Below, piece by piece: positions 21,736 through 41,928 of a stretch of DNA of 64,000 bases (the stretch's first letter is position 1; the number at the start of each line of letters is the position of its first letter). The notes under the pieces are model-generated. The model saw only the letters and a list, made by a program, of their open reading frames with translations. It did no database searches and was not told the DNA's origin. Position numbers and translations under genes: made by a program. Source of the stretch: Aureimonas populi (GTDB lineage: Bacteria; Pseudomonadota; Alphaproteobacteria; Rhizobiales; Rhizobiaceae); contig NZ_CP072611.1 in NCBI RefSeq assembly GCF_017815515.1, positions 434,001 to 498,000 on the forward strand, given 5' to 3'.

Positions 21736-21755
21736 TACAGTAATATTCACGTATT
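21736..21755. promoter_or_regulatory. Operator copy 3 (IacR-like palindrome) between the fusion regulator and the panE-like operon
   Basis: The 20 bases TACAGTAATATTCACGTATT match the palindrome in front of the iac operon (41901-41920) at 16 of 20 positions, and the flanks CCGA / TCGG extend the symmetry. The site lies about 13 bases before the panE-like ATG, so binding there would block expression of that operon; the divergent fusion-regulator gene starts about 100 bases away. Confidence 0.6.
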
Positions 21756-21768
21756 CGGAGGCTTGGCC

Positions 21769-22770
21769 ATGTCCGACCCCGCCATCACGATCATCGGCGC
21801 CGGTGCGATCGGCTCGTTCCTGGCGACGCGGCTGGCAGAGGCCGGTCTCGCCACGACGCTGGTCGCGCGCGGCGCGAGGCTGGAACAGCTCCGGGCGCGG
21901 GCGCCGGCCCTGTGCGGCGGCGCGAAAGGGCACCGGGGCAGGATCGACCCCGCGCCCCGCGCCACCGGCCCCGCCGATATCCTTTTCCTGTGCGTGAAGG
22001 CGCATGCGCTGCGCGAGGCGCTGGCCGCCAACGGCGCGGCGAACGGCCCCGGCACCACGGTGGTGCCCCTCGTCAACGGCATCCCCTTCTGGCATTTCGC
22101 CGACAGGCCGGAGGGCGAGCGATCCGTGCCGGTCATCGACCCGGAGGGCGCGATTCTGGCGGCGGCGGGGCCCCATGCGGTGCTCGGCTGCGTGACCTAC
22201 ATCGCCGCCGAACTCACCGGGGACGGCGATGTCCTCTCCCCGACGGCGCCGCGCCTGGCGCTCGGCCCCGCCCGTGCCGGGGGGCCGGATGGGCGGGCGG
22301 TGGCCGCGCTGGCCGCGCGCGCCGGCATCGATGTCGAGCGGCCCCGAGACATCCGCTCCGCCGTCTGGCACAAGCTCGCCATCAACCTTGCCACCAACCC
22401 GCTTTCAGCGCTCACCGACACTTCAGTCGGCGAGATCGCGGCGAACGCGGAGCTTCTGGCGATCGCCGCCGACATCGCGGCCGAGGTTCGTGCCCTCGCC
22501 GCCGCCTACGGCTTCGACACCGGCCTCTCGGCCGAGGGCCTTGCCGAGACCATGGCCGCCGCCAACGACTTCTCCACCTCCATGCGCCAGGACGCGCGGG
22601 CCGGCCGGCCGCTGGAACTGGGCGCCATCTGCCATGCGCCGCTGGCGCTCGCGGCCCGCGCGGGCGTGGCCATGCCCGTCACGCGCAGCATCGTCCACCT
22701 CCTTGCCGCCAGCGCGCCCGGGAAGGTCCGGCCCGCCCCGGCGCCCAACCTGGAAAGGGAAGTCGCATGA
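21769..22770 (+). CDS. Ketopantoate reductase family oxidoreductase (PanE/ApbA-like)
   Basis: This 333-residue NAD(P)H-dependent dehydrogenase has the Rossmann motif IIGAGAIGSFLATRLAEAG at residues 7-25, and the family catalytic lysine is present in VWHKLAINLATNPLSALTD. Standard PanE works in pantothenate synthesis, but its place in a regulated catabolic operon, directly coupled to an aldolase, suggests a different 2-oxo or 2-hydroxy acid. The ATG at 21769 follows an AGG-rich site; the open frame extends far upstream as a shadow of the minus-strand gene. It overlaps the next gene by four bases. Confidence 0.85.
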   Translation: MSDPAITIIGAGAIGSFLATRLAEAGLATTLVARGARLEQLRARAPALCGGAKGHRGRIDPAPRATGPADILFLCVKAHALREALAANGAANGPGTTVVPLVNGIPFWHFADRPEGERSVPVIDPEGAILAAAGPHAVLGCVTYIAAELTGDGDVLSPTAPRLALGPARAGGPDGRAVAALAARAGIDVERPRDIRSAVWHKLAINLATNPLSALTDTSVGEIAANAELLAIAADIAAEVRALAAAYGFDTGLSAEGLAETMAAANDFSTSMRQDARAGRPLELGAICHAPLALAARAGVAMPVTRSIVHLLAASAPGKVRPAPAPNLEREVA

Positions 22771-23522
22771 CCATCCATCCGAACGCCGTGGAGGCCCCGA
22801 AGACGGAACGGGAGCTGCGGGCCGAGCTGGCCGACTTCTACCACCTCGTCAGCTATCTCGGCTGGACCGAGCTGATCTTCAACCACATCTCGCTGCGCGT
22901 GCCGGGCCCCGAGCACCACTATCTCGTCAACCCCTTCGGCCTGCATTACGACGAGATCACCCCGGACAATCTGATCAAGGTGGGGATCGACGGACGCAAG
23001 GTGGAGCCTTCCCCCTACGAGGCGAACCCGGCCGGCTTCGCGTTGCACGGCGTCATCCACGAGCACCGGCCCGATGTCGGCTGCGTGGCGCATACCCATA
23101 CGACGCCGATCTCGGCGGTGACGCTGAAGCAGGACGGTTTCGAGCACGACAGCTTCTACGGCGCCCAGCTCTTCGGCCGCATCGCCTACCACACCTTCGA
23201 GGGCATCACGCTCTATGACGAGGAGCGGGCGCGCATGCTGGCGAGCCTGGGCGAGAAGCATGTCCTCGTCCTGCGCAACCACGGCATCGCGGTGTGCGAG
23301 GCGAACGTGCCCAACACCTTCATGCTGCTCTGGACGGTGCAGCGCGCCGCCGAGATCCAGTGCGCCGCCGCGCCCATTCCCGGCGCCAACAATCCGCTGC
23401 CCGACGAGGTGCGCCAGAAATGCGCCGACGACGCACGCCGCCTCGTGGACGGCGCGCGCTTCTCGCAACTCCTGTTCGACGCCATGGTGCGCAAGATGAA
23501 GCGCGAGCGCCCGGAGTTCTGA
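22767..23522 (+). CDS. Class II aldolase/adducin family protein
   Basis: This 251-residue zinc-dependent aldolase-like protein has the adducin-type motifs LIFNHISLRVPG, YEANPAGFALHGVIHE and the metal-binding pair in VAHTHTTPISAV (near residues 111-122), with a third histidine in LVLRNHGIAVCE. Members cleave or decarboxylate sugar phosphates and hydroxy acids. The substrate is not readable. It is translationally coupled to the panE-like gene, so the pair probably performs sequential oxidation and carbon-carbon cleavage, or the reverse. Confidence 0.85.
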   Translation: MTIHPNAVEAPKTERELRAELADFYHLVSYLGWTELIFNHISLRVPGPEHHYLVNPFGLHYDEITPDNLIKVGIDGRKVEPSPYEANPAGFALHGVIHEHRPDVGCVAHTHTTPISAVTLKQDGFEHDSFYGAQLFGRIAYHTFEGITLYDEERARMLASLGEKHVLVLRNHGIAVCEANVPNTFMLLWTVQRAAEIQCAAAPIPGANNPLPDEVRQKCADDARRLVDGARFSQLLFDAMVRKMKRERPEF

Positions 23523-23537: not shown

Positions 23538-23945
23538 CTACGGAATGACCGTCTCCTGCAGGAGAGCCCAGACCGGCGTCGGCCGGTCCGGGCGGTCGAC
23601 GAGGAGCGCCGTGGACCAGCGCTGCGTGGTGCCGCTGTCCTGCCGCTGCACCTCGCGATAGGTGATGAGGGCGCCGGCCTGCGACAGGGCCCGGAGCGTC
23701 ACGTCCTCGATCTCCATCACCAGCGTCGGCCGGCTGCCCCGCATACGCGGCAACGCCGCCGCCATGCCCTCGTGCGAGAGAAGGTTGCCCGCCGCGCCCA
23801 CCATGTGGAACGCCTCGTCGAAGCGCTCCATCACCTTTGCGGCGTCATCCCCGCCCTCGCCCCGGAACCAGGCCTGGAGCACGCGATGCAGGCCGTCGAT
23901 CTCGGCCAGCGCCCGCTCGGCGAAGGGAATCTCGTTTTCAGCCAT
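23538..23945 (-). CDS. SnoaL/NTF2-like small protein
   Basis: This 135-residue protein with an NTF2-like pattern contains AFHMVGAAGNLLSHEGMAA and a C-terminal strand pair TTQRWSTALLVDRPD then WALLQETVIP. It is the last gene of the minus-strand operon that begins with the importer at 29498, 37 bases after the hydroxyacyl-CoA-dehydrogenase-like gene. Members of this fold serve as small isomerases, dehydratases or binding proteins; IacI of indole-acetate pathways is also of this kind, but equivalence is not shown. Confidence 0.7.
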   Translation of the reverse strand: MAENEIPFAERALAEIDGLHRVLQAWFRGEGGDDAAKVMERFDEAFHMVGAAGNLLSHEGMAAALPRMRGSRPTLVMEIEDVTLRALSQAGALITYREVQRQDSGTTQRWSTALLVDRPDRPTPVWALLQETVIP

Positions 23946-23982: not shown

Positions 23983-24987
23983 TCACAGGCGCGGCGGATA
24001 GGCGAGGCCCTGCGCGCGCAGGCGGTCCACGAAGGCGGCCAGGCGCTCCTGGCGATAGGCCGGCACGTCGCGGCCCTCATGGTCGAGGAAGCCGCGCCCG
24101 GCGGTGAGCCCGATCCGCCCCTCCTCCATGTTGCGCCGGACGATGGCGGGGGCGGCGTAGCGCTCGTCGCCCAGCGCGCCGGCCAGATAGCGGCTGGCAT
24201 GATACAGCGTGTCGCCCCCGCCCCAGTCGATGAACTCCAGCAGGCCGAGCACGGAGAAGCGCAGGCCGAAGCCGTAGCGCACGGCCTTCTCGATCTCCTC
24301 GACGGAGGCCACGCCCTCCTCCACCAGCCGCGCGGCCTCGTTCATCGCCACGGACTGGAGCCGCGGCACGATGTAGCCCGGGCTCGGCGCGCAGCGCACC
24401 GGCACCTTGCCGATCCGCTCCAGCACGGCGCACAGCCGGTCCACGACGGCCGGATCGGTGCCCGCGCCGGGCGCGATCTCGACCAGTGGCACCAGGAAGG
24501 CCGGGTTCAGCCAGTGCGCGTTGAGGAAGCGGCCGGGGCCGGCGACGGCCGGTGACAGATCGTCGACGAGGATCGTGGAGGTCGTGGAGGCGATGATCGC
24601 CTCCGGCCCGACCAGCGCCGAGGCCTCGGCCAGCGCCTCGCGCTTCAGCGCGACGATCTCGGGGAAGCCCTCGAAGACGATGTCGGCCGCACGAAGGGCC
24701 GGGGCCGCGTCGCCTCGGCTCACCAACGCCACCCGCCCGGCGATGGTCTCGACCGCGGGGCCGGGCGCAAAGAGGCCGAGCTCGGCGAGGAGGGCGAGCG
24801 TCTCGCGGACCTCCGCCTCCGCCTTGCGCGCCAGAGCGTCGAAATCCGGCGCGGGCCGGGCCTTGAAGTCGATGAGCGCGACTTCGTGCCCGGCATAGGC
24901 GAAGACGGTGGCGATGCCGCGCCCCATGCGCCCTGCGCCCAGAATGGCGATCTTCTCGCGAGGAGCCTCTGCCCGCTCGGCGCTCAT
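23983..24987 (-). CDS. 3-Hydroxyacyl-CoA dehydrogenase family protein
   Basis: This 334-residue NAD-binding enzyme has the Rossmann motif ILGAGRMGRGIATVFAYAG (residues 14-32), the family segment NAHWLNPAFLVPLVEIAPG near residue 155 and a C-terminal helical domain ending in TAGRGFLDHEGRDVPAY. It is the size of stand-alone 3-hydroxybutyryl-CoA or L-gulonate dehydrogenases and probably oxidises a beta-hydroxy acid. Its start overlaps the stop of the opine-dehydrogenase-like gene by four bases. Confidence 0.85.
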   Translation of the reverse strand: MSAERAEAPREKIAILGAGRMGRGIATVFAYAGHEVALIDFKARPAPDFDALARKAEAEVRETLALLAELGLFAPGPAVETIAGRVALVSRGDAAPALRAADIVFEGFPEIVALKREALAEASALVGPEAIIASTTSTILVDDLSPAVAGPGRFLNAHWLNPAFLVPLVEIAPGAGTDPAVVDRLCAVLERIGKVPVRCAPSPGYIVPRLQSVAMNEAARLVEEGVASVEEIEKAVRYGFGLRFSVLGLLEFIDWGGGDTLYHASRYLAGALGDERYAAPAIVRRNMEEGRIGLTAGRGFLDHEGRDVPAYRQERLAAFVDRLRAQGLAYPPRL

Positions 24988-26078
24988 GACGGGTAGCCCT
25001 CGGCAAGGAACGCCTGGAGTTCGGCGCGGTCCAGAGCCGCAAGACCCAGCTTCCCCAGCGGCCGGCCCTCCAGGGCGAAGTCCCGCCCCGCCATGATGGA
25101 GCCGAGAGCGAGCAGGCCCCGCGCCACCGGCACCTCGACGCCCGCCATGGCCGCGACCGAGCAGAGGAGCGACAGGCCGAGCCCGATATCCTCCAGGACG
25201 TAACGATGCTCGGTGAGCACGATCTTCTCGCGCCAGTCGCCCGAATCGGTCAGCTCGTCATGAGAGCCGCGCCCGTACATCCATTCCTCGCCCGTGCGCG
25301 AATAATGGTCCGCGAGCGGAAAATGCGGCGCCCCGTAGCCCAGCGCCTCGCGCAGCGCCATGCGCTCGGCGTCGAGCGCGTCCGTCACGCGCCGGATGGC
25401 CGGCTGAGTGCCCTCATTGTGGATGTCCCAGGCCTCGAAATGCTCCAGCGGCCCCGCATTCATCACGATCAGCGGCGGGTGGATCACCGGCCCGGCATTC
25501 ATCAGCGCGCCGGACAGAACGCCGCCGCAGGGCACGATGCAGCCCGGAAACGCCGCTTCGATGACGCCGAGCGCGTGGTCCGCGAGGCGTGAGGGGAAGA
25601 CGCCGGTCGGCAGGCGCGTCGCCCGGCCGCTGACGACGATCTCGGCAAAGCCGTGCTTTCGCACCAGCCAGGGCAGCGTGCCGGATTCGGCGAAGGCGAC
25701 CCCGGAGGCGGTGCCCGCCGCCTGCGCCGCCCGCGCGAAGACGAGCGTTCCGAGCGTTCCGGGCGGCAGATGCACGACCTGGCCGGGCCGCAGATGCGGC
25801 GCCAGCCTCTGCGCCAGTTCCTCATGCGTCGTCGCCGGCAGCGGCGCGATGATGTACCGCGCGCCGGACACGGCTGCTGCGATGTCGTCCGTCACGCGCG
25901 CCAGCACGGCCTCGCGCCGCCCCTTGCGGTCGCGCAGCACGATCCTGCGCCCCAGCGCCTCGTGCTCGGCCACCTCGCGCGCGCCTCGGCGCCAGAGCGT
26001 CACCTCGTGTCCGGCCAGCGAGAAATCCGCCGCCGCCGCGAACGAGCCGTTGCCTCCCCCCAGGACTGCGATGCGCAT
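24984..26078 (-). CDS. Opine/octopine dehydrogenase family NAD(P)-binding protein
   Basis: This 364-residue protein has an N-terminal Rossmann domain (VLGGGNGSFAAAADFSLAGH) and a C-terminal octopine-dehydrogenase-type domain with NAGPVIHPPLIVMNAG near residue 200, the conserved His-containing motif of that family. Opine dehydrogenases join an amino acid and a keto acid reductively; a catabolic oxidation is equally possible. The ATG at 26078 has GGGGAG eight bases before it and is preferred over a GTG nine bases upstream. It lies 45 bases after the permease genes and is coupled to the next gene. Confidence 0.82.
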   Translation of the reverse strand: MRIAVLGGGNGSFAAAADFSLAGHEVTLWRRGAREVAEHEALGRRIVLRDRKGRREAVLARVTDDIAAAVSGARYIIAPLPATTHEELAQRLAPHLRPGQVVHLPPGTLGTLVFARAAQAAGTASGVAFAESGTLPWLVRKHGFAEIVVSGRATRLPTGVFPSRLADHALGVIEAAFPGCIVPCGGVLSGALMNAGPVIHPPLIVMNAGPLEHFEAWDIHNEGTQPAIRRVTDALDAERMALREALGYGAPHFPLADHYSRTGEEWMYGRGSHDELTDSGDWREKIVLTEHRYVLEDIGLGLSLLCSVAAMAGVEVPVARGLLALGSIMAGRDFALEGRPLGKLGLAALDRAELQAFLAEGYPS

Positions 26079-26123
26079 TCCGAGCACTCCCCTGCTTGCT
26101 GTGATGTGGATGGAACGGACGGA

Positions 26124-26885
26124 TCAGGCGTCCGGATAGCCGACGAGAAGGCGCCGCCGCAGCATGTTGAAGCCGGCGCTCAGGAGAAGGCCGAGGGCGG
26201 AGATCAGGATGATCGGCGCGAACATGTCGATCATCCTGAAATTGCGCGCCGCGTCGATCAGCACGTAGCCCAGCCCCTCGGTGGAGGAGATCATCTCCGA
26301 CAGGAACACGACGATGCAGGAAATGATCATGGCCACCCGGCAGCCCGTGAGGATGGTGGGCAGCGCGGCCGGCACGCTGACGAAGAACAGCGCATGCAGC
26401 GGCGAGGCTCCGGCCGAGCGCGCCGCCCAGACGAGCTTCGTCTCCACGTTCCTCAGCCCCTGGAAGGCAGCGAGATAGATGGGAAAGGCCGCCTCGGCCG
26501 CCACGAGGGCGATCTTGGACGCATCGCCGAAGCCCATGACGAGGATGAGCATCGGATAGAGCGCGATCTTGGGGATCGGCGCGAGGAGCTGCACGAGCGC
26601 GGTGAGCAGCGCGCGGGCGCGCGCGTCCAGAACCGCCAGCAGCGCCAGCGCGAGGCCGACGGCAAGGCCGATGGCAAAGCCGCTCGCCAGGCGGAACAGG
26701 GTGGTGGCGATATGCATGCGGAACTCGGAATCGCCGAGCAGCGTGAGCGTGCGCGTGAAGACGGCGAGCGGCGAGGGCAGCAGCGCGCGCGGCAGCGTCC
26801 CGTAGGCGGCCAGCGCGGCCCAGATGCCGATGACGGCGGCGATGGGCAGGAGGCCGAGCACGAAGGGGGCGTAGCGCGACTTCAT
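26124..26885 (-). CDS. ABC transporter permease B, NMT1/SsuC type (importer 3)
   Basis: This 253-residue membrane protein has an EAA-type loop AARSAGASPLHALFFVSVPAAL near residues 165-185, written here with its centre RSAGASPLHALFF. The start at 26885 overlaps the preceding permease stop by ATGA. Together with the other permease gene it suggests a heterodimeric membrane part, which is less usual for this family, where a homodimer is the rule. Confidence 0.88.
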   Translation of the reverse strand: MKSRYAPFVLGLLPIAAVIGIWAALAAYGTLPRALLPSPLAVFTRTLTLLGDSEFRMHIATTLFRLASGFAIGLAVGLALALLAVLDARARALLTALVQLLAPIPKIALYPMLILVMGFGDASKIALVAAEAAFPIYLAAFQGLRNVETKLVWAARSAGASPLHALFFVSVPAALPTILTGCRVAMIISCIVVFLSEMISSTEGLGYVLIDAARNFRMIDMFAPIILISALGLLLSAGFNMLRRRLLVGYPDA

Positions 26886-27649
26886 CCGCCGGAGGCCCCC
26901 AGGCTCTGTTGGGCGGGCGACCAGCTCAGGAAGAAGGCGCGGACCCGGTCGAAGCCGAGGTCGAGAAAATAGCCCATGGCCGCGATCAGCACGATCGCAC
27001 CGAACATTCGGTCGTAGAGCGCCATGTCCAGCGAGTTGAAGAGCAGGTTGCCGATGCCGTCCGTGCGCGCCACGATCTCGCTCGTCACCATGGTGATCAG
27101 GGCAAGGACGAGGCCCGTGCGCAGGCCGATGAAGATCTCCGGCAGCGCGGAGGGAAGCACCACGCGCAGGAGCTGCCCGCCGCGCCCCATGCCCATCGCC
27201 GCCGCGCTCCACACCACCACCTCGTTCACCGAGCGCGCCCCTTGCATGGAATGGAAGATGACCGGCAGGCTGACCCCGAGGAAGATGACGAGGATCTTCG
27301 ACATGTCCCCGACGCCGAGCCAGATCATCAGGATCGGCATCAGCGCGCCCTTCGGCACCGGGTAGATCGTCATCAGCAACGGGTTGAGAAGATGGGCGAA
27401 GACCGCGCTGCGGCCCATCATCAGCCCCACGCAGATGCCGAAGACGGCGGCGAGCCCGTAGCCGATGGCCATGCGGCGCAGCGACTGGAAGATGTCGTTG
27501 AGCGAGGACGGCTCGCCGAGGATGACGGGTAGCTGCGCGAGCGCGGTGAACGGCCCCGGCAGCGCGGCCAGGCCCAGGCTGCGATGGGCGACCTCCCAGC
27601 ACAGGATGAGGAACGCGACGGCCAGAAGCGTGGAGGCGACCCGCTTCAT
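26882..27649 (-). CDS. ABC transporter permease A, NMT1/SsuC type (importer 3)
   Basis: This 255-residue membrane protein has about six helices and the coupling loop WSAAAMGMGRGGQLLRVVLP near residues 155-175. Its start at 27649 overlaps the ATPase stop (ATGA). It pairs with the second permease gene just downstream. The open frame continues upstream across the ATPase gene as a shadow, so the inner ATG is chosen. Confidence 0.88.
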   Translation of the reverse strand: MKRVASTLLAVAFLILCWEVAHRSLGLAALPGPFTALAQLPVILGEPSSLNDIFQSLRRMAIGYGLAAVFGICVGLMMGRSAVFAHLLNPLLMTIYPVPKGALMPILMIWLGVGDMSKILVIFLGVSLPVIFHSMQGARSVNEVVVWSAAAMGMGRGGQLLRVVLPSALPEIFIGLRTGLVLALITMVTSEIVARTDGIGNLLFNSLDMALYDRMFGAIVLIAAMGYFLDLGFDRVRAFFLSWSPAQQSLGASGG

Positions 27650-28416
27650 GCCGCGCCCGCCTCCACCGCGTCGATCATCCCCTCGATGCGTGCGACATAT
27701 TCCTGATAGCGCCGGTCCAGCACCAGCTCGGCCCGCTCGCGCGGGCGCTCCAGCTCGATCGTCACGATATCGACGATCCGGCCGGGCCCCGCGCCCATCA
27801 CCACCACGCGGTCGGAGAGGAACACCGCCTCGTCGACGCCGTGCGTGACGAAGAGCACGGTCTTTCGATCCTCCTCCCAGATGCGCAGGAGGTCGCGCTG
27901 GAGATGGGAGCGGGTGCGCGCGTCCAGCGCCCCGAAGGGCTCGTCCATCAAAAGGATTCCCGGATCGTAGGCCAGCGTCCGGGCGATGGCCACGCGCTGC
28001 TTCATGCCGCCCGACAGCTCCTTGGGATAGAAGGAGGCGAAGCGCTCCAGCCCCACCATGCGCAGGAGCTCGAAGGCCCGGGCTTCCGCCTCCGCCCTCG
28101 AGCGCCCCTTCAGCCGGACGCCGTAGGCCACGTTCTGGAGCACGGTCTTCCAGGCGAAGAGCGCGAATTCCTGGAACACCGGGCCACGGTCCGGCCCGGG
28201 CCCGCTCACGGGAACGCCGTCGACGCGCACCACACCCTCGCTCGCCTCCACGAAGCCGCCCACGATGTAGAGAAGGGTGGACTTGCCGCAGCCGGACGGC
28301 CCGATGATGGAGACGAACTCGCCCTCCGAAACGCTCAGCTCGATGCCGGACAGGGCCAGATGGCTTGCCCCGCCCGTGGTCTTGAACCGCTTGGAGATGT
28401 TCTCGATCGCGATCAT
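27646..28416 (-). CDS. ABC transporter ATP-binding protein (importer 3)
   Basis: This 256-residue ATPase of the SsuB/TauB/ThiZ class has Walker A GPSGCGKST, signature LSGGMKQRVA, Walker B ILLMDEPFGALD and switch FVTHGVDEA, where a glycine replaces the usual Asp after the histidine. It is separated from the binding-protein gene by 80 bases containing a strong stem-loop. Confidence 0.92.
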   Translation of the reverse strand: MIAIENISKRFKTTGGASHLALSGIELSVSEGEFVSIIGPSGCGKSTLLYIVGGFVEASEGVVRVDGVPVSGPGPDRGPVFQEFALFAWKTVLQNVAYGVRLKGRSRAEAEARAFELLRMVGLERFASFYPKELSGGMKQRVAIARTLAYDPGILLMDEPFGALDARTRSHLQRDLLRIWEEDRKTVLFVTHGVDEAVFLSDRVVVMGAGPGRIVDIVTIELERPRERAELVLDRRYQEYVARIEGMIDAVEAGAA

Positions 28417-28496: not shown

Positions 28497-29498
28497 TCAG
28501 CGCAGCGGGGCGCTGAGCGTGGGATGGCGGAAGAGCTGCGCGTCGAGTTCCCCTTCGAGCATTCCGATCCGGGTGTAGAGATCGAACATGTCCTGCAGGG
28601 CGTCGAACTGGAAGGCGCCGCCCTCGTAGCGCTCGAAATCGTTCTCGGTCATGTAGTAGGCCTCAAGGACCGGAACGGGAATGTTGGTGACGCTCGCGGC
28701 CACCTCGATCGTCTGCGCCCGGTCGGCGAGGACGAGGTCCATCGCGCTCGTCAGGTCGCGCACATAGGCCTCGGCGACCTCCGGCTGCTCGTCCACGAAC
28801 GCCTTGCTGCAGACCTCGAAGATCTGCACCATGGTGGTCAGGACATCCTCGGTCGAAAACAGCTTGCGCACGCCGCCCGCCGATTCGGCGTTCCGGGCGA
28901 AGGGCTGGTTCATCACCGCCGCATCCACGCGCCCGCTGCGCAGCGCGTCCTCGGAGCCTGAAAAGCCCAGCTCCACCAGCCGGATATCGCGCCGAGGATC
29001 GAGGCCGCCCTCCTCCAGATACATGGTGAGCGGACCCATGAGGCCCGAGCCGAGCACGTTGATGCTGACGGTCTTGCCGCGCAGGTCGGCCACCTCGCGG
29101 ATGGGGTCGTCCTCGCGCACGGCCCAGTAGGGCGAGAAGTGCCCCGGCGTGCTGTCGACATGGGAGGCCACGACATAGGACTCGAGGCCGCCCTGGAGAT
29201 GGCCGTTGGCGAGCACCAGCGCGGACTGGGTCGAGCATTCCACGGCCCCGGCGATCATCGCCTGCGCCATCGGCGCGGTTCCCTGGAACTGCACCCATTC
29301 GATGTTGTACGCCGAGCCCAACGCGGGAAACAGTTCCGGGCGCTTCATCATCAGGTACTTGGTGTCCTCGGCGGGAATGGTCCAGCCGATGCGGATGGTC
29401 GGCACGTCCTGCGCGAGCGCCGGCCCCGTCGCCGCCGGGGCGCAGAGCGAGACGGCGGCCGCGCCGGCAAGAAGCACGCAATTCCTGAACAGACCCAT
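28497..29498 (-). CDS. ABC transporter substrate-binding protein, NMT1/THI5 type (importer 3)
   Basis: This 333-residue periplasmic protein has a Sec signal peptide of about 30 residues (GPALAQD). The mature start IRIGWTIPAEDTKYLMMKRP and the motif YNIEWVQFQGTAPMAQAMIA show the two-lobed NMT1/SsuA-like fold. The ATG at 29498 has GAGGGG seven bases before it and is chosen over an ATG six bases upstream. This is the first gene of a seven-gene operon, and an operator shared with the iac operon lies about 250 bases upstream. The ligand may therefore be an auxin-like or related aromatic acid; that is inference. Confidence 0.88.
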   Translation of the reverse strand: MGLFRNCVLLAGAAAVSLCAPAATGPALAQDVPTIRIGWTIPAEDTKYLMMKRPELFPALGSAYNIEWVQFQGTAPMAQAMIAGAVECSTQSALVLANGHLQGGLESYVVASHVDSTPGHFSPYWAVREDDPIREVADLRGKTVSINVLGSGLMGPLTMYLEEGGLDPRRDIRLVELGFSGSEDALRSGRVDAAVMNQPFARNAESAGGVRKLFSTEDVLTTMVQIFEVCSKAFVDEQPEVAEAYVRDLTSAMDLVLADRAQTIEVAASVTNIPVPVLEAYYMTENDFERYEGGAFQFDALQDMFDLYTRIGMLEGELDAQLFRHPTLSAPLR

Positions 29499-29881
29499 GA
29501 TCATCCCCTCTGACGACAAAATCCGGCCTATGCCGCGCGGCGGCCACCCCCGGGGCACGCTCGAACGGCGCCCCGCCATGCGCGGATGCCGAAGACAGGC
29601 ACCATCGCGACGAAAGACTTCGCAAGTCCCGGCCGGACCCCACGTCCCGGCCAGCCAGTATGGATCAAGCCACTATCCGCGCGGATACTTCGCATCCGTC
29701 TGCGCGCGACGCACGAACCCTGTCTCGACGTTTCGGTCCGCCCGCCTCTATTGCAGTAAAATTACCGTATTACGATAGGCCGTCAACCGAAATGTCCCGC
29801 TCTATCGGCTCAATTTTGTGCAGTCTCTGCCTGGATGGCAGCCGATTGCAAATCCGCTGCGCTTCGAGCGCGGCCGGGCGG
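29499..29881. promoter_or_regulatory. Control region of importer 3, including operator copy 2
   Basis: These 383 bases lie between the tctA stop and the importer 3 binding-protein gene. The only clear structure is the palindromic operator at 29752-29771, set in a locally AT-rich stretch (29740-29830). No gene with coding support is visible in it. Confidence 0.5.
29752..29771. promoter_or_regulatory. Operator copy 2 (IacR-like palindrome) upstream of importer 3
   Basis: The 20 bases TGCAGTAAAATTACCGTATT share 16 consecutive bases (GTAAAATTACCGTATT) with the perfect palindrome in front of the iac operon at 41901-41920, and match it at 18 of 20 positions. Such a long identity between two promoter regions 12 kb apart points to one regulator acting on both. 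Confidence 0.7.
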
Positions 29882-31866: not shown

Positions 31867-31904
31867 CGCGTCACCTTTCACACGCATGGAATCGGGGCAG
31901 GTCG

Positions 31905-32645: not shown

Positions 32646-32678
32646 CGGCAAGGTCTCTCCCATGTCGCGGCGCGGCGC

Positions 32679-33632: not shown

Positions 33633-33657
33633 GGTCACTCCTTCGGCATGTTCAAAA

Positions 33658-33687: not shown

Positions 33688-33766
33688 AACCATTTCTTTT
33701 GAAACTAATCTGACGCTGTGAAGCGGGCGCGTCGCGGCCCGGCGAGGCAGAAAAAAGGAGACCGGC

Positions 33767-34927: not shown

Positions 34928-34930
34928 CCC

Positions 34931-35479
34931 ATGCAATCGAGGGTCGTTGGAAGGCGGCAAGAGGGCCGGAGCGGGAGGAATGCCTTGAGAGACAGGGACG
35001 GCGACAATGGCGCGGAGCGCGCGCAGGAGGAGGCGGAGCCAGGCGAAGCGGTCGAGCTCGGCATCCTGGCCGGCCATCTCGGTTTCCACCTGCGGCTCGC
35101 CAACGACCGCACCTTCGAGACCTTCGCCGATCTCCTGGGCGCAGACCGGCTGAGGCCCGGATGCTTCACCATGCTCATCCTCATCGCCAACAATCCCGGC
35201 ATCACCCAGACGGGCATCTCGCGCGCCTGCGGGCGCGACAAGTCGAGCGTGGCCAAGGCGCTCCGCTACATGGAGGACGAGGGACTCATCCGGCGCGAGC
35301 GGGTGGAGGACGATCGCCGCTCCTCCGCCAGCTTCGTCACGCCGGCCGGCGCGCAAAGGGTCGAGCGGTTGCAGGAGAAGGCGCGCATCCAGAGCGCGCG
35401 GATATCCGCCGCGCTCGGCGAGGCGCGCGTGCAGGAGCTTCTGGCCACGTTGAAGGCGCTGATCGACAGGCTGTCCTGA
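34931..35479 (+). CDS. MarR family transcriptional regulator of the TctC/decarboxylase locus
   Basis: This protein of up to 182 residues has a winged helix-turn-helix with ISRACGRDKSSVAKALRYME near residues 97-116 and the wing RRERVEDDRRSSASFVTPAG. The first 40 residues are charged and probably include a mis-extended start; inner starts are possible. It follows the enolase-superfamily gene by three bases, so it is cotranscribed with it and is the natural regulator of the divergent promoter at 33633-33766. Confidence 0.82.
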   Translation: MQSRVVGRRQEGRSGRNALRDRDGDNGAERAQEEAEPGEAVELGILAGHLGFHLRLANDRTFETFADLLGADRLRPGCFTMLILIANNPGITQTGISRACGRDKSSVAKALRYMEDEGLIRRERVEDDRRSSASFVTPAGAQRVERLQEKARIQSARISAALGEARVQELLATLKALIDRLS

Positions 35480-35487
35480 GAGACCGT
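35476..35487. repeat. Copy 3 (short) of the post-stop element
   Basis: CTGAGAGACCGT overlaps the stop of the MarR gene and touches the stop of the convergent flavin reductase gene. It is identical to the first 12 bases of the elements at 7354 and 55104. As only 12 bases match, chance cannot be excluded. Confidence 0.35.
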
Positions 35488-35996
35488 CAGGGCGCGGCCG
35501 TGCCGGCAGGCGCGGCGGCCAGCGCGTGATAGGCGCGGTCGAACCAGATCAGCGTCTCGGCCGGCTCCTCGCCCACCCTGACGGCCTCCACGCGGGCATA
35601 GAAGACCGAATGCGTGCCCACCGCGCGCCGCTCCACGATGCGGCAGTCGAAGGCGACCACGGCATCGACCAGCACCGGCGCGCCGGTGGCCAGCGTCGTC
35701 CACGCGCCCTCCTCGAAGCGCTCCCCGGCCCCGCCGCGCCCGGCGAAGGCGTCCGACAGCGCCCGGTGCCGCCCCGCCAACACGTTGACGCACAGATTGC
35801 CGTTGCCGTTGAAGATGTCGTGCGAGCGATTGCCGCGATTGACGCAGACGAGCAGGGTCGGCGGATCGTCGGTGATGGAGCAGACGGCCGAGGCGGTCAT
35901 GCCGTGCCGCCCTTCCGGCCCACCGGAAGTGATGAGATTCACGGCCGCGCCGAGCCGGCTCATGCCCTGCCGAAAGTCGAGCGCCTGTTGTCGCAT
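35487..35996 (-). CDS. iacG: Flavin reductase (IacG-like)
   Basis: This 169-residue protein of the HpaC/NtaB flavin reductase family supplies reduced flavin to a partner monooxygenase. The family motif HGMTASAVCSITDDPPTLLV lies near residues 32-51, followed by CVNRGNRSHDIF. It is the last gene of the minus-strand iac-like operon, where it would serve the IacA-type flavin monooxygenase. It is seven bases from the convergent MarR gene. Confidence 0.88.
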   Translation of the reverse strand: MRQQALDFRQGMSRLGAAVNLITSGGPEGRHGMTASAVCSITDDPPTLLVCVNRGNRSHDIFNGNGNLCVNVLAGRHRALSDAFAGRGGAGERFEEGAWTTLATGAPVLVDAVVAFDCRIVERRAVGTHSVFYARVEAVRVGEEPAETLIWFDRAYHALAAAPAGTAAP

Positions 35997-36007
35997 GAGG
36001 CGATCCT

Positions 36008-36964
36008 TCAAATGTCCAGAACCAGCCTGGCGCTGAGCGCGCGAGAGCAGCACACCGTCATCTCGGCGTTCTCCGCCTTCTCCTCCGGCGTGAGGAACAC
36101 GTCGCGATGGTCGGGCAGCCCCTCCAGAACCGTCGTGAGGCAGGTGCCGCACACGCCTTCCTCGCACTTCACCTCCACCGCGATCCCCACGCGCTCCAGC
36201 GCCTTGGCGATGGTCTCGTCCGGCCCGACGGTGACGGTCACGCCCGAGGCGCGGGCCTCCACCTCGAAACTGTCGCCGGACAGCTCCACATCCGCGCTGA
36301 AATATTCGCGATGAATGCGCTCCGAAGGGTAGCCCGCGCGCTCGGCCGCCTCGATCAGCCAGTCCATGAAACCCTGCGGGCCGCACACATAGAGATGCGC
36401 GCCCTCCCCCGGCGCCGGCAGCGCGGCGGGATCGTAGAGCGTGCCCTCGTCGTCATGGTGGAAGCGGACCCGGTCCCGGAAGGGCGCCGCGTCGATCTCC
36501 TCCAGGAAGGCCGTCACGGCGCGCGAGCGGGTGCAGTAGTGCAGCTCGAAATCGCGGCCCAGCGCGTGCAGCCGGTGGGCCATCGCCAGCATGGGCGTCA
36601 CGCCGACGCCGCCTGCCAGGAGGATGGATCGCGGCGCCGCCTCCGCCAGCGCGAAATGGTTGCGCGGAGCGCTCGCCTCGATCACCGCGCCGGGGCGCGC
36701 GAGCGCGTGGAGGGCGCGCGAGCCGCCCCGGCTGGCCGGGTCCTTCAGGATGCCGAGGCGATAGGCTCCGCGCTCGCGCGGGTCGCCGCACAGCGAGTAC
36801 TGGCGCCAGAGATCGACGCCCTCGCCCGTCACGCGGATGTCGAGATGGGCCCCCGCCTCGAAAGGCGGAAGCTCGCGCCCGTCCGACGCCGCGAGCGTCA
36901 GGCGCAGGATGCCGCCGCGATCCTCGGCCCGCTCGGCCACCCGCAGGGACAGGTTGTCCTCCAT
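36008..36964 (-). CDS. iacF: Ferredoxin-NAD(P)H oxidoreductase of the ring-hydroxylating system (IacF/VanB-like)
   Basis: This 318-residue reductase of the phthalate dioxygenase reductase family has an FMN domain (WRQYSLCG near residue 55), an NAD(P)H domain (GGVGVTPMLAMAHRL near 112) and a C-terminal plant-type 2Fe-2S ferredoxin (CEEGVCGTC followed later by CC). It passes electrons to the Rieske dioxygenase. The ATG at 36964 has a G-rich ribosome site; an ATG at 36982 overlaps the SDR stop by ATGA and is an equally possible start. Confidence 0.88.
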   Translation of the reverse strand: MEDNLSLRVAERAEDRGGILRLTLAASDGRELPPFEAGAHLDIRVTGEGVDLWRQYSLCGDPRERGAYRLGILKDPASRGGSRALHALARPGAVIEASAPRNHFALAEAAPRSILLAGGVGVTPMLAMAHRLHALGRDFELHYCTRSRAVTAFLEEIDAAPFRDRVRFHHDDEGTLYDPAALPAPGEGAHLYVCGPQGFMDWLIEAAERAGYPSERIHREYFSADVELSGDSFEVEARASGVTVTVGPDETIAKALERVGIAVEVKCEEGVCGTCLTTVLEGLPDHRDVFLTPEEKAENAEMTVCCSRALSARLVLDI

Positions 36965-36978
36965 AGCCTCGCCCCCCT

Positions 36979-37740
36979 TCATCGCATGTAGAGGCCGCCA
37001 TTGACGTCCCAGCAGGCGCCGTTGACGAAGGCGGCCGCCGGGGCGGCGAGGAAGGCGACGAGATCGGCCACGAGCCCCGCGTCCCCGAGGCGCCGCACCG
37101 GGATCTGCGCGATCAGCGCGTCCATCGCCTCGCCCTGCACCAGCGAGCGGACCATGGGCGTGTCCATGGGGCCGGGCGAGATGGCGTTGACCGTGACGCC
37201 GAAGGGGCCGAGGTCGCGCGCGAAGACCTTGGTCAGGGCCAGGATCGCCCCCTTGGACGCGGCGTAGTGCGCGCCCGTCGCCGTGCCGCCGTTCTGCCCG
37301 GCGAGCGAGGCGAGGTTGACGATGCGCCCGTAGCCGCGCTCCTTGAAATGGCGCCCGAAGATGCGGCAGCCCGAGAAGGTGCCGCCCGCATTGATCGCCA
37401 TCACCTCGTCGAACTCGGCCGTCTCGATCTCCAGCACGGGCCGCGCGCGCGTGACCGCCGCGTTGTTGACCAGAACCTCGACCGAGCCCCAGCGGGCGAC
37501 GGTCTTCTCCAGAACGGCCGTGAAATCCTCCGGCCGGGCGATGTCGAGCCGGGCGGTGACGGCGGTCTCGGAGGCAAGGTCCAGCTCCTCGGCGAGGGCA
37601 TCGCAGGCCGCCTCGTCCTTGTCGGAAAGGATCACCCGGAAACCGGCCCGGTGCAGGGCGCGGGCGATCTGCGCGCCCACCCCCGACGCGGCCCCCGTGA
37701 CCACCGCCGTCTGCGTCTCGATGGGCAGAGGCGCGGGCAT
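36979..37740 (-). CDS. iacE: Short-chain dehydrogenase/reductase (IacE-like)
   Basis: This 253-residue SDR has the cofactor motif VTGAASGVGAQIARAL near residues 14-29, the NNA motif in LVNNAAVT, and the active-site Ser (VNLASLAG) with YAASKGA. In the iac pathway IacE is reported to act on the oxidised indole-acetate intermediate. One-base overlap with the dioxygenase beta-subunit gene and near overlap with iacF show one operon. Confidence 0.87.
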   Translation of the reverse strand: MPAPLPIETQTAVVTGAASGVGAQIARALHRAGFRVILSDKDEAACDALAEELDLASETAVTARLDIARPEDFTAVLEKTVARWGSVEVLVNNAAVTRARPVLEIETAEFDEVMAINAGGTFSGCRIFGRHFKERGYGRIVNLASLAGQNGGTATGAHYAASKGAILALTKVFARDLGPFGVTVNAISPGPMDTPMVRSLVQGEAMDALIAQIPVRRLGDAGLVADLVAFLAAPAAAFVNGACWDVNGGLYMR

Positions 37741-38249
37741 CAGAAGAGATAGCTGATCGAGGTCAGCACTCCGTCGGCGTTGATCATGCGCACCACCTTG
37801 TCGCGGATCATGAGGGCGCCGTCCCGCCGCACCAGCCGATGCTCGACATTGGCCACGAAGACGCGCTGGCGATCGAACTTGTCCTCGGTGAGGTGCATGG
37901 CCGAGCGCACGGCGATAAGGCCCGGCCCCGCCTCCATCGTCACGAAGCGCGAGGCGAGGCGGATGGTGCGCGCGGCGGGCGTGGCCGAGATGGCGAAGCC
38001 GCCGCTGAGCCGCTCCACCCGCATCCGCCGCATCTGCGCGTCGTCATAGACGATGTTCAGGGTGTTCTCGAAGTCGGTCGCCTCGGGCTTCAGCGGAATG
38101 ACATAGCGCCCCTCCGGCGCCCAGAGCGCGAGCCATGCCTCGTAGTCCGCCCGGTCGAGGATGTCCGCCTCCCGCCAGATGAACTCCTCCGCCTCGCGCA
38201 GCGAGATGTCGCCCTCGATCGGCCGTTCCATCACCTCCGCGCCGGTCAT
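37740..38249 (-). CDS. iacD: Ring-hydroxylating dioxygenase beta subunit (IacD-like)
   Basis: This 169-residue protein is the small subunit of a Rieske non-haem iron oxygenase with an NTF2-like fold, and the family stretches EAEEFIWREADILDRADYEA and VRMINADGVLTSISYLF mark it. The ATG at 38249 overlaps the alpha-subunit stop; the longer frame to 38591 is a shadow of the alpha gene. It supports the alpha subunit structurally. Confidence 0.9.
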   Translation of the reverse strand: MTGAEVMERPIEGDISLREAEEFIWREADILDRADYEAWLALWAPEGRYVIPLKPEATDFENTLNIVYDDAQMRRMRVERLSGGFAISATPAARTIRLASRFVTMEAGPGLIAVRSAMHLTEDKFDRQRVFVANVEHRLVRRDGALMIRDKVVRMINADGVLTSISYLF

Positions 38250-39517
38250 TGCGCCATCATCCTTTCCCACATGGCATAGGCGGCGCGCATGCCGGTCTCG
38301 GCGCTCACATCGCCGCGCGGCAGGCCGTGCAGCCCCTGTTTCTCCAGCCCCTCCCCACGATTGACGAGGATGTCGAGGTCCGGCCCGCCGGCCGTGCCGC
38401 GCTGGACGCGCTCCCACACCTCGGCGTCGTCCGGGCTGCCGAAGCCCATCGGGCCCTGGAAGTGCTCGTGCAGGCGCAGGCGCATCTGGTTGGCCTCGGG
38501 CGGCCCGCCCTCCATGCCGAGCGCGATGTGCCGGATATGCGTCTCGGTGGCGCTCACCGGGCGCAGGATGCGGAAGAAGGACAGCGAGCACGCCGCGTTG
38601 GGGAAGAGGTTGAGGTTGAAGCCCACCCCGCCCACCGCCTTCACGATGCGCCGCACCTGCTCCTCGTCGTAGCGCTCCCGCAACTGGTCGGCGAGGGCGG
38701 AGAAGCGCGCGGGAATCTGCCAGCCCTCGTCGGCGTCGAGGTCGATCAGCTCGGGCATCATGACCATCACGGAATGGCCGTTGCCCAGGTCCTGCACGAA
38801 GCCGTCATCCTCGCCGAGGAAGGAGAACATCTCCTCCGTCTGCGCGTCGAGCGACTGGAGGAAGGGCTTGTGGACGACCGGGAAGTGATAGGCGTCGGTG
38901 GTGTTCTCGAGCTGGATCTTCCAGTTGCCGGGGAAGGAGAACCGGTGCTCCCCCGCCGCCTTCACCGGAAAGCCGCCGCCCTGCTTCATGAACAGGTCGA
39001 TCCACACGCGGGCATGGCCGAGGAAATCCTCCAGCGGCTCGACCGCCTCGTTGAAGGAGGCGAAGATCATCCCGGCATAGGTGGCGACCTTCAGCCGGCG
39101 AAGGCCGAACTGCGACTTGTCGAAGCCCTCGCCGTAGCCCTCCGAATAGGGCACGCCGCGCAGCGAGCCGTCCAGCGCGTAGCCCCAGCCATGATAGGGG
39201 CACTGGAAGGAGCTGGTGCGGCCGCTGTCGTGCTCGCACACCGTGGCGGCGCGGTGCCGGCAGCGATTGACGAGGACGTGCAGCTCGCCCTTGCGATCGC
39301 GCGAGACGATCACCGGCTGCGTGCCGACCCAGGACCGCTTGAACGAGCCCTTCTCCGGCACCTCGGAGGTGTGGGCCACCCAAACCCAGGTCCGGCCGAA
39401 GATCTTCTCCATCTCGGTCTCGAAGAGGTCCGGGTCCGAGTAGATGGTGGTGCGCACGCGGTCTCCCCGGGAAAGGGCGGCGTAGTCGCGGTTCGGTTCG
39501 CTCGATACGGCAGACAT
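38246..39517 (-). CDS. iacC: Rieske aromatic ring-hydroxylating dioxygenase alpha subunit (IacC-like)
   Basis: This 423-residue catalytic subunit inserts dioxygen into an aromatic ring. The Rieske 2Fe-2S ligands are Cys86, His88, Cys106 and His109 (CRHR and CPYHG). The mononuclear iron site shows Asp208, His211 and His216 in ENTTDAYHFPVVH. Size and arrangement match anthranilate-type and IacC oxygenases. It is coupled to the beta subunit and follows the IacA-like gene by 45 bases. Confidence 0.92.
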   Translation of the reverse strand: MSAVSSEPNRDYAALSRGDRVRTTIYSDPDLFETEMEKIFGRTWVWVAHTSEVPEKGSFKRSWVGTQPVIVSRDRKGELHVLVNRCRHRAATVCEHDSGRTSSFQCPYHGWGYALDGSLRGVPYSEGYGEGFDKSQFGLRRLKVATYAGMIFASFNEAVEPLEDFLGHARVWIDLFMKQGGGFPVKAAGEHRFSFPGNWKIQLENTTDAYHFPVVHKPFLQSLDAQTEEMFSFLGEDDGFVQDLGNGHSVMVMMPELIDLDADEGWQIPARFSALADQLRERYDEEQVRRIVKAVGGVGFNLNLFPNAACSLSFFRILRPVSATETHIRHIALGMEGGPPEANQMRLRLHEHFQGPMGFGSPDDAEVWERVQRGTAGGPDLDILVNRGEGLEKQGLHGLPRGDVSAETGMRAAYAMWERMMAQ

Positions 39518-39562: not shown

Positions 39563-40714
39563 TCAGGGATATCCGGGGGGCGTCTTCTCGCCGGCCAGGC
39601 CCGCGCCGGCCGAGGTGAAGGTGCCGAGCCCGAGAAAGGCGTGCTGCGCGACGGCGGCCGCGTCCAGCATGCAGCGCACCAGCGGATGCCCGCGCGCGAT
39701 GGCCGAGGCCCCGCCCAGGCGGAAGGCGGCGCGCGCCACCTCGGCGCTCTCGCTGGCGGCCTGCGTGGCGCAAAGCCGCAGCCGCACCCGCAGCGCCTGC
39801 CCCACCTCGTCGCCGGCCAGCACGCTCTCCCACGCCTCCCCCACCGTGTCGTAGAAGAAGGCGCGGGCGCCGCGCAGCCGCGCCTCGGCCCGGCCGATCT
39901 CGGCCTGGACATAGGCGCGCGCGCCGAGCGAGGGAGCGCCGGTGATCGAGGCGGCCCCGAGGGCCTCGCCATGGATGTGGTCCAGCGCCTCGCGCGCCGC
40001 GCCGAGCCCGACCACGGCCAGCACCTGCGCGGCGAGCGCCATGGAAGGGTAGCGGAAGATGGGCTCCTCCCTCTGCGAGGGCGCGCCGCGCACGAAGCTC
40101 CACGCCTCGTCCACCTCCACCCCGTCGGCCACGATGTCGTGGCTGCCGGTGGCCGCGAGGCCGACCGTGTCCCAGGTGTGCTTGATGGAGACGGCCGCGC
40201 GCGGCATCACCACCATGCGCGGCAGGCCGCCGCTGCCCGCCTCGTCCACCTTGATGCCCGCGCCGATCAGCGAGGCGCCCATGCAGCCGGAGCAGTAGGG
40301 CCAGCGCCCTCGCACGCGGAAGCCGGCGGGCGTGCGCTCGGCGGGCTGCGGGGGAAAGATCGCGCCCGCGAAGACCGTGTCGGGGTCGGCCCGGTAGATG
40401 TGCTCGAACGTCTCGCGCGGCAGCGCCGCCAGATAGGTGGAGGAGACGCCGAAGCTCGCCACCCAGCCCGTGGAGGCATCGGCCGCCGAGATCGCCTCGA
40501 TCAGTTCCATGAAGGCGGCCGGCGAAAGCGCGTCTCCCCCCAGCTCGCGCGGCACGAAGGCCCGGTAGACGCCGATGCGCTGGAGCTTGCCCACCATGTC
40601 GAGCGGCACATAGGTCAGCTTCTCGAAATCCTCGCGCCGGGCGCGGATCTCGTCCAGAAGCGCGGGCAAGTCGATCGGCGCCGGCGCCGGGCGGGCGAAG
40701 GGCGTGATGCTCAT
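39563..40714 (-). CDS. iacA: Acyl-CoA-dehydrogenase-fold flavin monooxygenase (IacA-like)
   Basis: This 383-residue protein belongs to the acyl-CoA dehydrogenase fold group that includes flavin-dependent oxygenases such as HpaB/HsaA and IacA. The segments GVYRAFVPRELGGDALSP near residues 48-65 and ADASTGWVASFGVSSTYLA near 82-100 are typical, as is DTVGLAATGSHDIV. IacA performs the first hydroxylation of indole-3-acetate using FADH2 from IacG. The start overlaps the amidase gene by four bases; the longer frame to 41344 is a shadow. Confidence 0.87.
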   Translation of the reverse strand: MSITPFARPAPAPIDLPALLDEIRARREDFEKLTYVPLDMVGKLQRIGVYRAFVPRELGGDALSPAAFMELIEAISAADASTGWVASFGVSSTYLAALPRETFEHIYRADPDTVFAGAIFPPQPAERTPAGFRVRGRWPYCSGCMGASLIGAGIKVDEAGSGGLPRMVVMPRAAVSIKHTWDTVGLAATGSHDIVADGVEVDEAWSFVRGAPSQREEPIFRYPSMALAAQVLAVVGLGAAREALDHIHGEALGAASITGAPSLGARAYVQAEIGRAEARLRGARAFFYDTVGEAWESVLAGDEVGQALRVRLRLCATQAASESAEVARAAFRLGGASAIARGHPLVRCMLDAAAVAQHAFLGLGTFTSAGAGLAGEKTPPGYP

Positions 40715-41874
40715 CGGTCCTGTCCTGGGAGATTGGCGGGCTCGCCCGCGATGCGGCGCGCGAGCCATTCGGCCACCGCGCAGAGCCTCTCGTCCTCGCC
40801 GTGGCGGCCCACGAGCTGGAGGCCGGCCGGCAGCCCCTCGGCGGTGCGCAGGGGCACCGTGAGCGCGGGGTGGCCGGACAGGTTGAAGGGCCGCAGGAGA
40901 GCCGTGAGGGGGATCAGGGCGCGCATGTCGCGCGCCTCCTCCAGCGTGGGCGGCACCACCGGCATGGTGGGCAGCACCAGCGCGTCGGCGCTCTCCAGCG
41001 CACGGTCCACCTCGGCCCGGAACGCCCGCCGCACCGCCTCGGCCCGCTCCAGCGCCCCCGGGGAGAAGGACTTCACCGCTTGCAGGATGCGCGCGCGCAC
41101 CGTCTCGTCCATCGGCGCGCCCGAGGCCGCGAGCGCGCCATAGGCGCGGCCCGCTTCCGCATCGATCACCACGAGGCCCGCCTCGTAGGCGGGGCGCATG
41201 CACGGAAGCAGGCCGGGGCGCGTGGCCACGCCGGCCAGCGCCCCCGCGAAGGCCGCCGCGACATCGCCGGCCGCCTCGGCCTCGATCCGCACGAGCTGGA
41301 ACGGTCCGGCGGCGTCGGCGCGCCGGAAGGTGGGGTCGAGGCACTCCATCGCGCGGGCCAGCATCCCCGCGCTGGCGGCGAGCGGGCCGATGCAGTCGAG
41401 CGAGCTTTCTGCAGGCAGGGTGCCTGTCCGGTCGATCCGCCCGAAGGTGGGCTTCAGGCCGAAGACGCCGCAGCAGCAGGCGGGCATGCGCACAGATCCG
41501 CCGGTGTCGGTGCCCACGGTGAAGTCGCAGGTGCCGGCGGCGACGAGCGCCGCCGAGCCGGAGGAGGAGCCGCCGGGAATGCGCGCGGGCCAGTTCGGAT
41601 TGACGGGCGTGCCGAGAAACGCGTTCACGCCCGTCACGCCGAAGGCCAGCTCATGCATGTTGGCGGTGCCGAGGATGGCGCAGCCGGCGGCGAGGAGGGC
41701 CTCCACCACGCGCGCATGAGCGGCCTGCGGCGGGCTGTCCTGCAAGGCGGGCGAGCCGCAGCGGGTCGGCAGGCCCGCGACCGCGATGCACTCCTTGACC
41801 GCCACGCGCAGCGAGCCGCTTCCCAGCGCGAGCGGGCGGGACAGGGCAACGGCGTGGGAGGGGATATCCAGCAT
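40711..41874 (-). CDS. iacH: Amidase signature family enzyme (IacH-like)
   Basis: This 387-residue amidase signature protein has the catalytic triad Lys27 (VAVKECIAVAG), cis-Ser in GGSSSGSAAL near residue 103 and nucleophile Ser127 in GTDTGGSVRM. In known iac clusters IacH is of this family and is thought to act on an oxidised indole-acetate intermediate. It is the first gene of the operon, and a perfect 18-base-arm palindrome lies just before its start. A slightly short C-terminus compared with full amidases is visible. Confidence 0.87.
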   Translation of the reverse strand: MLDIPSHAVALSRPLALGSGSLRVAVKECIAVAGLPTRCGSPALQDSPPQAAHARVVEALLAAGCAILGTANMHELAFGVTGVNAFLGTPVNPNWPARIPGGSSSGSAALVAAGTCDFTVGTDTGGSVRMPACCCGVFGLKPTFGRIDRTGTLPAESSLDCIGPLAASAGMLARAMECLDPTFRRADAAGPFQLVRIEAEAAGDVAAAFAGALAGVATRPGLLPCMRPAYEAGLVVIDAEAGRAYGALAASGAPMDETVRARILQAVKSFSPGALERAEAVRRAFRAEVDRALESADALVLPTMPVVPPTLEEARDMRALIPLTALLRPFNLSGHPALTVPLRTAEGLPAGLQLVGRHGEDERLCAVAEWLARRIAGEPANLPGQDR

Positions 41875-41890
41875 ACGGCGCGATCCGGGG

Positions 41891-41928
41891 CACGATCCAA
41901 TACGGTAAAATTACCGTATTGGATCGTG
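41891..41928. promoter_or_regulatory. Operator copy 1, perfect 38-base palindrome upstream of the iac operon
   Basis: Two 18-base arms (CACGATCCAATACGGTAA and its exact reverse complement) with a 2-base spacer lie 16 bases before the amidase start. The core TACGGTAAAATTACCGTATT recurs at 29752-29771 (18 of 20) and 21736-21755 (16 of 20). A dimeric regulator such as the MarR protein encoded at 41991-42575 would cover it. Binding here would directly block the iac promoter. Confidence 0.85.

Follow-up and report, generated by a model that had tools for sequence, protein, structure and literature searches.

The 64 kb stretch of Aureimonas populi DNA analysed here (contig NZ_CP072611.1, positions 434,001 to 498,000; referred to as the window) carries three copies of a palindromic operator. 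One precedes the operon for indole-3-acetate catabolism (iac), one a seven-gene operon for an SsuA/NMT1-type ATP-binding cassette (ABC) importer with two dehydrogenases, and one a gene pair for a panE-like reductase and a class II aldolase. The three sites are more than alike, as a motif derived from the iac promoters of relatives singles them out. The sequence evidence makes it very probable that the MarR-family protein IacR operates all three sites as an auxin-responsive repressor, with the operator lying over the -10 box and indole-3-acetic acid (IAA) releasing the protein; this estimate does not extend to uptake of IAA by the importer, which is weighed separately below.

Three operator copies in the window

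Operator 1 recurs about 12 and about 20 kb away, ahead of the importer operon and the panE-aldolase pair, respectively.

41900-41919, minus strand: operator 1, 20-bp core, inside the perfect palindrome 41890-41929; precedes iacH
29751-29770, minus strand: operator 2, in an intergenic gap about 250 nt ahead of sbp1
21735-21754, plus strand: operator 3, in an intergenic gap, abutting the GGAGG and ATG of the panE-like gene

The palindrome at site 1 consists of 19-base arms and a 2-base centre and is the sole inverted repeat of the window whose arms are perfect over more than 10 bases and whose loop is 0-4 bases long. Its length is 40 bp rather than the 38 bp given in the initial annotation, in which one operator had been proposed for the three promoters. 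The coordinates and match counts of that annotation are borne out: in its register, 29752-29771 agrees with the site-1 core at 18 of 20 positions (16 in a row) and 21736-21755 at 16 of 20. The sites also lie in AT-rich promoter gaps as it had described, with 45-51% GC in the 81-89 bp around them compared with 70% for the window. The outer arm bases of the long palindrome fall outside the conserved operator.

A 20-base degenerate pattern allowing up to three mismatches matches the window at the three sites only (five strand matches; none in 100 shuffles). Pattern searches were extended to the full genome, a single contig of 3.82 Mb that is 99.6% complete. Two patterns, at up to three mismatches, gave no extra places, one retrieving sites 1 and 2 and the other all three, with no matches for the reversed controls; a third, looser pattern gave one extra weak place (G000:C1:997370-997391, three mismatches), and its reversed control also gave one match. 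Many equal matches outside promoters, which the initial annotation had regarded as the finding that would speak against a regulon, were not seen in these searches. In a family-wide search at up to two mismatches, 32 of 297 genomes matched; since the reversed control matched as often (37 of 297), the pattern alone is uninformative outside iac loci.

A motif from the iac promoters of relatives

IacR-like genes are present in 12 of 394 genomes of the family, including this one (E <= 1e-25), in Rhizobium sp. RU36D and in 17 plasmids (E <= 1e-20). From these, 20 loci were gathered (1 + 11 from genomes and eight of the 17 plasmid matches). Three loci with no iacA nearby (L057, L058 and L111, the last of which has an iacH-like gene) and one in which the operon start lies beyond the stretch (L109) were excluded, and none of them has a site of at least 17 bits; for one record, the longer stretch L117 took the place of L106, giving 16 loci, several of which are mutually close relatives. 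Palindromic motifs were searched for de novo in 630 bases extending upstream from iacH or iacA in these 16 loci, with no window sequence included. Of 9776 possible start windows 1500 were tried, and all 15 refined runs reached the same likelihood. The motif converged on TTACGGTAATATTACCGTAA, with best sites of 22.1-32.0 bits across the 16 regions. A first matrix, trained on 16 sites picked by likeness to site 1, was set aside as partly circular, and the claim is therefore carried by the de novo motif.

When the 64 kb were scanned with this motif, the three operators scored 30.3 (41900), 27.2 (21735) and 26.6 bits (29751), and the fourth place scored -2.7. With 500 column-permuted matrices, no third hit exceeded 12.2 and no single hit exceeded 24.5. 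No match of 20 bits or more was found in 463 kb of loci fetched with the aldolase or with odh, a dehydrogenase gene of the importer operon, iac-bearing loci being excluded. This negative set consisted of 17 family loci (odh has matches in 24 other family genomes, of which 18 loci were taken and G354 was left out) and three plasmids each for odh and for the aldolase (leaving out Thioclava and Acinetobacter); a weak MarR match (30%) is present in one of its loci, L092. One half of site 3, ATTCACGTAT, is an apparent mismatch to site 1 yet a regular variant among the operators of relatives: at that half, the iac operators have ACATTCACGTAA in four family members and TTTTCACGTAA in two Azospirillum plasmids and Martelella.

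Further operator-like sites were observed in relatives. A second well-conserved site, TTACGTGAATATTACCGC (25.5 bits), stands before a SnoaL gene divergent from iacH or iacA (L052:17301, L053:17291, L107:18599 and L110:19510), and in genome G245 another operator stands ahead of an aldehyde dehydrogenase gene. Weaker sites (19-21 bits) ahead of iacR at L110:11828, L112:11864 and L060:10282 suggest that iacR may be autoregulated in those relatives; in the window there is no such site, the best matrix score ahead of iacR (42417-42637) being -23.1.

The probable regulator and the position of the operator

41991-42575, minus strand: iacR, MarR-family regulator, upstream of iacH; true start probably nearer codon 50

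By its sequence, the product of 41991-42575 is an IacR-type MarR protein. It exceeds the Pfam cut-offs for MarR_2 and MarR and matches the structures 7KUA (Pseudomonas putida IacR; 2.8e-33), 7L19 (1.3e-27) and 7L1I (3.1e-19), with the IadR structure 7KFO matching at 1.4e-10 only, which places it nearer to the IacR than to the IadR structures. Residues W91 and R92 align with Trp-45 and Arg-46 of MarR_73, the Trp-Arg pair of the IAA pocket, and are invariant in eight aligned IacR proteins, as is Y73, which is matched to Tyr44 of P. putida by an inferred tag offset. The segment LNTTTKIVQRM, nearly identical across the eight aligned proteins, is at the position that we take to be where MarR proteins carry the DNA-reading helix. 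IacR is single-copy in the genome, and the relative that comes next at E <= 1e-6 shares 26% identity with it.

Read along transcription, the centre of the dyad is mostly TAANNT and resembles a -10 box. Operator 1 has TAATTT at its centre and TTGACC 17 bp upstream; operator 2 has TAATTT and TTGACG 16 bp upstream. We examined 25 operators chosen by their downstream gene, three from the window and 22 from relatives (several of them close). A -35 hexamer matching TTGACA in at least five of six positions lies 16 (13 cases) or 17 (four cases) bases upstream in 17 of them and is absent from the other eight; each of the remaining spacings between 5 and 35 shows such a hexamer in at most one of the 25. 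In RU36D, both the nearer iacA operator and the importer operator have the full -35/-10 arrangement.

In the mechanism that we propose, an IacR dimer would bind the dyad, whose centre is the -10 box, and shut out RNA polymerase. IAA would release IacR from the operators, and this release would jointly switch on the iac operon, the SsuA/NMT1-type importer with its two dehydrogenases and the panE-like/aldolase pair. In relatives, according to the available text of the reports, IAA frees IadR from DNA (PMC9613470) and relieves repression by IacR (PMC9613470, PMC11753152); we infer that the window IacR binds its operators and that IAA is the inducer here as well.

The three probable transcription units

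Strand and spacing suggest that each of the three gene runs is one operon. The iac run extends from 41874 to 35487 on the minus strand in the order H, A, C, D, E, F, G.

40711-41874, minus strand: iacH, amidase
39563-40714, minus strand: iacA, acyl-CoA-dehydrogenase-like monooxygenase; start approximate
38246-39517, minus strand: iacC, Rieske dioxygenase large subunit
37740-38240, minus strand: iacD, dioxygenase small subunit; start approximate
36979-37740, minus strand: iacE, short-chain dehydrogenase
36008-36982, minus strand: iacF, ferredoxin/reductase
35487-36000, minus strand: iacG, flavin reductase; start approximate

Neither iacB nor iacI is part of this operon, in which 45 bp separate iacA from iacC and leave no space; the Thioclava protein that occupies the place of IacI has 32% identity with the product of a SnoaL_4 gene at 19325-19891. 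The importer operon contains seven genes and spans 29498 to 23538 on the minus strand.

28497-29498, minus strand: sbp1, SsuA/NMT1-type substrate-binding protein
27646-28416, minus strand: atp1, ABC ATPase
26882-27643, minus strand: perm1, ABC permease, 74% identical to that of RU36D; start approximate
26124-26888, minus strand: perm2, ABC permease
24984-26087, minus strand: odh, octopine/nopaline-dehydrogenase-like
23983-24987, minus strand: hcdh, 3-hydroxyacyl-CoA-dehydrogenase-like
23538-23936, minus strand: DUF4440-like small protein (Pfam score 23.3, cut-off 25.2); start approximate

The third unit is the pair behind operator 3.

21769-22770, plus strand: panE-like gene, ketopantoate reductase family
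22767-23522, plus strand: class II aldolase/adducin family protein

The three units hold 16 structural genes (seven iac genes, seven of the importer operon and two more), so that the regulon of at least 17 genes in the initial annotation is reached only if iacR is included.

Gene neighbourhoods in other bacteria link the same blocks. In RU36D (L037) the order is iacR, two operators, iacA-iacE-iacG, an operator and sbp-atp-perm-perm-odh-hcdh, with 61-78% identity to the window proteins. The RU36D importer operator scores 17.0 bits, whereas 2 Mb of null sequence reach 12.8 at most. Between the two importer leaders, of 255 and 213 nt, no long similarity is seen. In G354, odh-hcdh come after iacG, and a TRAP (tripartite ATP-independent periplasmic) importer has a 27.5-bit operator with TTGACA 16 bp upstream. 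The iac run of Thioclava sp. GXIMD2076 is followed by a TRAP importer, panE (43%) and the aldolase (73%). An Acinetobacter plasmid carries, within about 31 kb, odh-hcdh, a MarR gene (32% to the window IacR), iac genes, a DUF4440 gene, cat genes and an importer-panE-aldolase block; no palindrome common to its iacR-iacH gap and its porin-importer-panE operon was found, and the matrix is uninformative in the AT-rich DNA of this plasmid. The neighbourhoods in relatives, as well as the operator, thus indicate that the three blocks belong together.

Substrate of the importer

The model of the sbp1 product has a mean predicted local distance difference test score (pLDDT) of 91.3, and its fold and family are SsuA/NMT1-like. 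At E <= 1e-45, sbp1 occurs in one of the 394 family genomes, namely this one; no match was found among the plasmids at 1e-30, and none in nine genomes of the genus of G319 in a search that had no positive control. Paracoccus, Rhizobium sp. ACO-34A, metagenomes and other sources supply closer relatives, at 57-83% identity.

Co-regulation points towards IAA or a related indolic acid, as does the neighbourhood in RU36D, and we consider the chances evenly balanced that IAA or a close indolic acid is the substrate. Elsewhere, odh-hcdh are found with TRAP importers or other dioxygenases, which leaves room for another aromatic hydroxy acid. The alternative that survives best accordingly concerns the importer: IacR would control all three sites, but the importer, odh and hcdh would handle a compound that co-occurs with auxin (an aryl or indolyl hydroxy acid, or an auxin precursor or conjugate), the importer being merely co-induced. 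This is compatible with the operator part of our proposal and rivals its importer part, and its probability is appreciable, if somewhat below even. Three plasmids carry odh-hcdh and then TRAP importer genes, with no iac set within the stretches shown; odh-hcdh adjoin other ring-hydroxylating dioxygenases in 14 of 17 non-iac family loci, and the fold of the binding protein is closest to SsuA. On the other side, the only other sbp1 operon seen in its context sits directly behind iacA-iacE-iacG (RU36D), sbp1 is in none of the other genomes of the family set at the threshold given above, and odh-hcdh come after iacG in G354.

Several observations weigh against our proposal of a three-site auxin regulon with an auxin importer. 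Site 3 (centre TAATAT) has no -35 hexamer at 16-17 bp, as is the case for seven of the 22 operators of relatives, and among the linked operators the one before the RU36D importer scores lowest. The nearest solved relatives of sbp1 bind sulfonates, and sbp1 is not of the IAA-binding class (B-III) reported for IadK2 in the available text of PMC10374108. The dioxygenase neighbours of odh-hcdh in non-iac loci belong here too, and an sbp1 orthologue in an iac context is known from one other genome (RU36D). Finally, the iac operon has no room for iacB, and a single IacB query, with no positive control, matched nothing in the genome. Taken to its full extent, the proposal is of a dispersed auxin regulon in which IacR operators form -10 boxes, an SsuA/NMT1-class importer unlike IadK2 would take up auxin or an auxin precursor, and odh, hcdh, the panE-like protein and the aldolase would supply the Iac pathway with additional indolic acids from plants; we put this forward tentatively, as possible but falling a little short of an even chance.

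Other explanations of the sites and neighbouring genes

Sites 2 and 3 could instead serve other regulators of the window, either the 20011-21636 protein or a second MarR protein (34931-35479), but this is improbable. The gene at 20011-21636 is divergent from panE and abuts site 3, and its product has a predicted N-terminal winged helix; the second MarR gene is located between the iac and importer operons. The initial annotation had named both 41991-42575 and 20011-21636 as regulators, of which the former (IacR) stands as the likely one. In 25 loci of relatives (mostly fetched with IacR, many with the operator), 20011-21636 has no match at E <= 1e-4, and the second MarR protein has one weak match, which overlaps the IacR homologue of L111.

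The 20011-21636 protein (541 residues) joins the predicted winged helix (block pLDDT up to 83) to an SBP_bac_1 domain; its model has a mean pLDDT of 42, from four sequences, and the N-terminal winged helix alone is usable. Its relatives (26-36%, among the 25 matches listed) are on rhizobial, Phaeobacter and other plasmids, and the annotated ones are solute-binding proteins. They may form a family of one-component regulators in which a binding protein serves as the sensor. Between the iac and importer operons, the matrix scan gave no operator in a block of TctCBA transporter and arylmalonate decarboxylase genes followed by a mandelate-racemase-like gene and the second MarR gene; this block (29882-35479) resembles a separate aryl-acid block. 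A second NMT1-type ABC importer at 16741-19891 starts with the SnoaL_4 gene, relatives of which (53-58%) are near iacH, iacA or iacR in other genomes. No operator lies ahead of it (best score -20.4).

It is less probable still, indeed very unlikely, that the main role of the long site-1 palindrome is in RNA, as a terminator or attenuator hairpin behind iacR. A 136-nt transcript stretch folds at -59.5 kcal/mol (z -6.95) and is between iacR and iacH on the same strand, but no T run follows the palindrome, and the 20-bp core recurs at promoters whereas the outer arms do not. As RNA, 41890-41929 forms a very stable hairpin in this position, and the outer arms of site 1 may add an RNA-hairpin role; Rfam gave no matches across 21500-42700. 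Chance resemblance among promoter sequences, which are AT-rich within a 70% GC genome, can be given next to no weight, as the null and permuted-matrix controls and the genome pattern searches produced nothing comparable.

Comparison with known systems

Control of iac genes by IacR has been described before; what is new is the proposed dispersed regulon that includes an importer of the SsuA/NMT1 type. The iac operons of P. putida 1290, Enterobacter soli LF7 and Acinetobacter baumannii resemble that of the window in having a MarR-type repressor with the iac genes. The window differs from these IacR-controlled operons in that the operator is repeated before the importer operon and the panE-aldolase pair, and iacB was not found in its genome by the one query without positive control. 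The IacR operator has already been used as a part, according to the available text of PMC8242030. In the literature searched, where subscription journals are thinly covered and some reports were available in part, no multi-operon IacR regulon, alphaproteobacterial IacR operator or SsuA/NMT1-type auxin importer was found.

In the Marinomonas sp. NFXS50 cluster, as far as the available text of PMC11373566 describes it, iacR is beside genes for a class II aldolase, a 2-dehydropantoate reductase and an ABC transporter, followed by iacABICDEFG, and the authors give the function of the aldolase, reductase and transporter genes as unknown. Unlike the window, this is one contiguous cluster, and its transporter is of the branched-chain-amino-acid type. 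RU36D shares with the window iacR, the operators, iac genes and an orthologous importer-odh-hcdh operon; in contrast to the window, all of these are contiguous, and iacH, iacC, iacD and iacF were not found in the 20-kb stretch.

The iad locus of Variovorax, like the window, combines a MarR repressor with a substrate-binding protein. In the available text, the repressor IadR (MarR_73) has a 24-bp site on the DNA ahead of the degradation genes (PMC9613470), and the substrate-binding protein IadK2 binds IAA (PMC10374108). The regulator group differs, as the 7KFO match above indicates, and by class description IadK2 is a B-III protein, whereas that of the window is SsuA/NMT1-like. Through the present analysis, a previously anonymous importer and four orphan enzymes become candidate members of an auxin response that can be put to the test. 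It also provides a sharp operator matrix for mapping IacR regulons in alphaproteobacteria and offers a simple mechanism, a repressor clamped onto the -10 box. In the literature examined, as far as available, IadK2 is the sole IAA-binding substrate-binding protein of a degradation locus, and an importer of another class would, if true, widen the view of bacterial auxin uptake.

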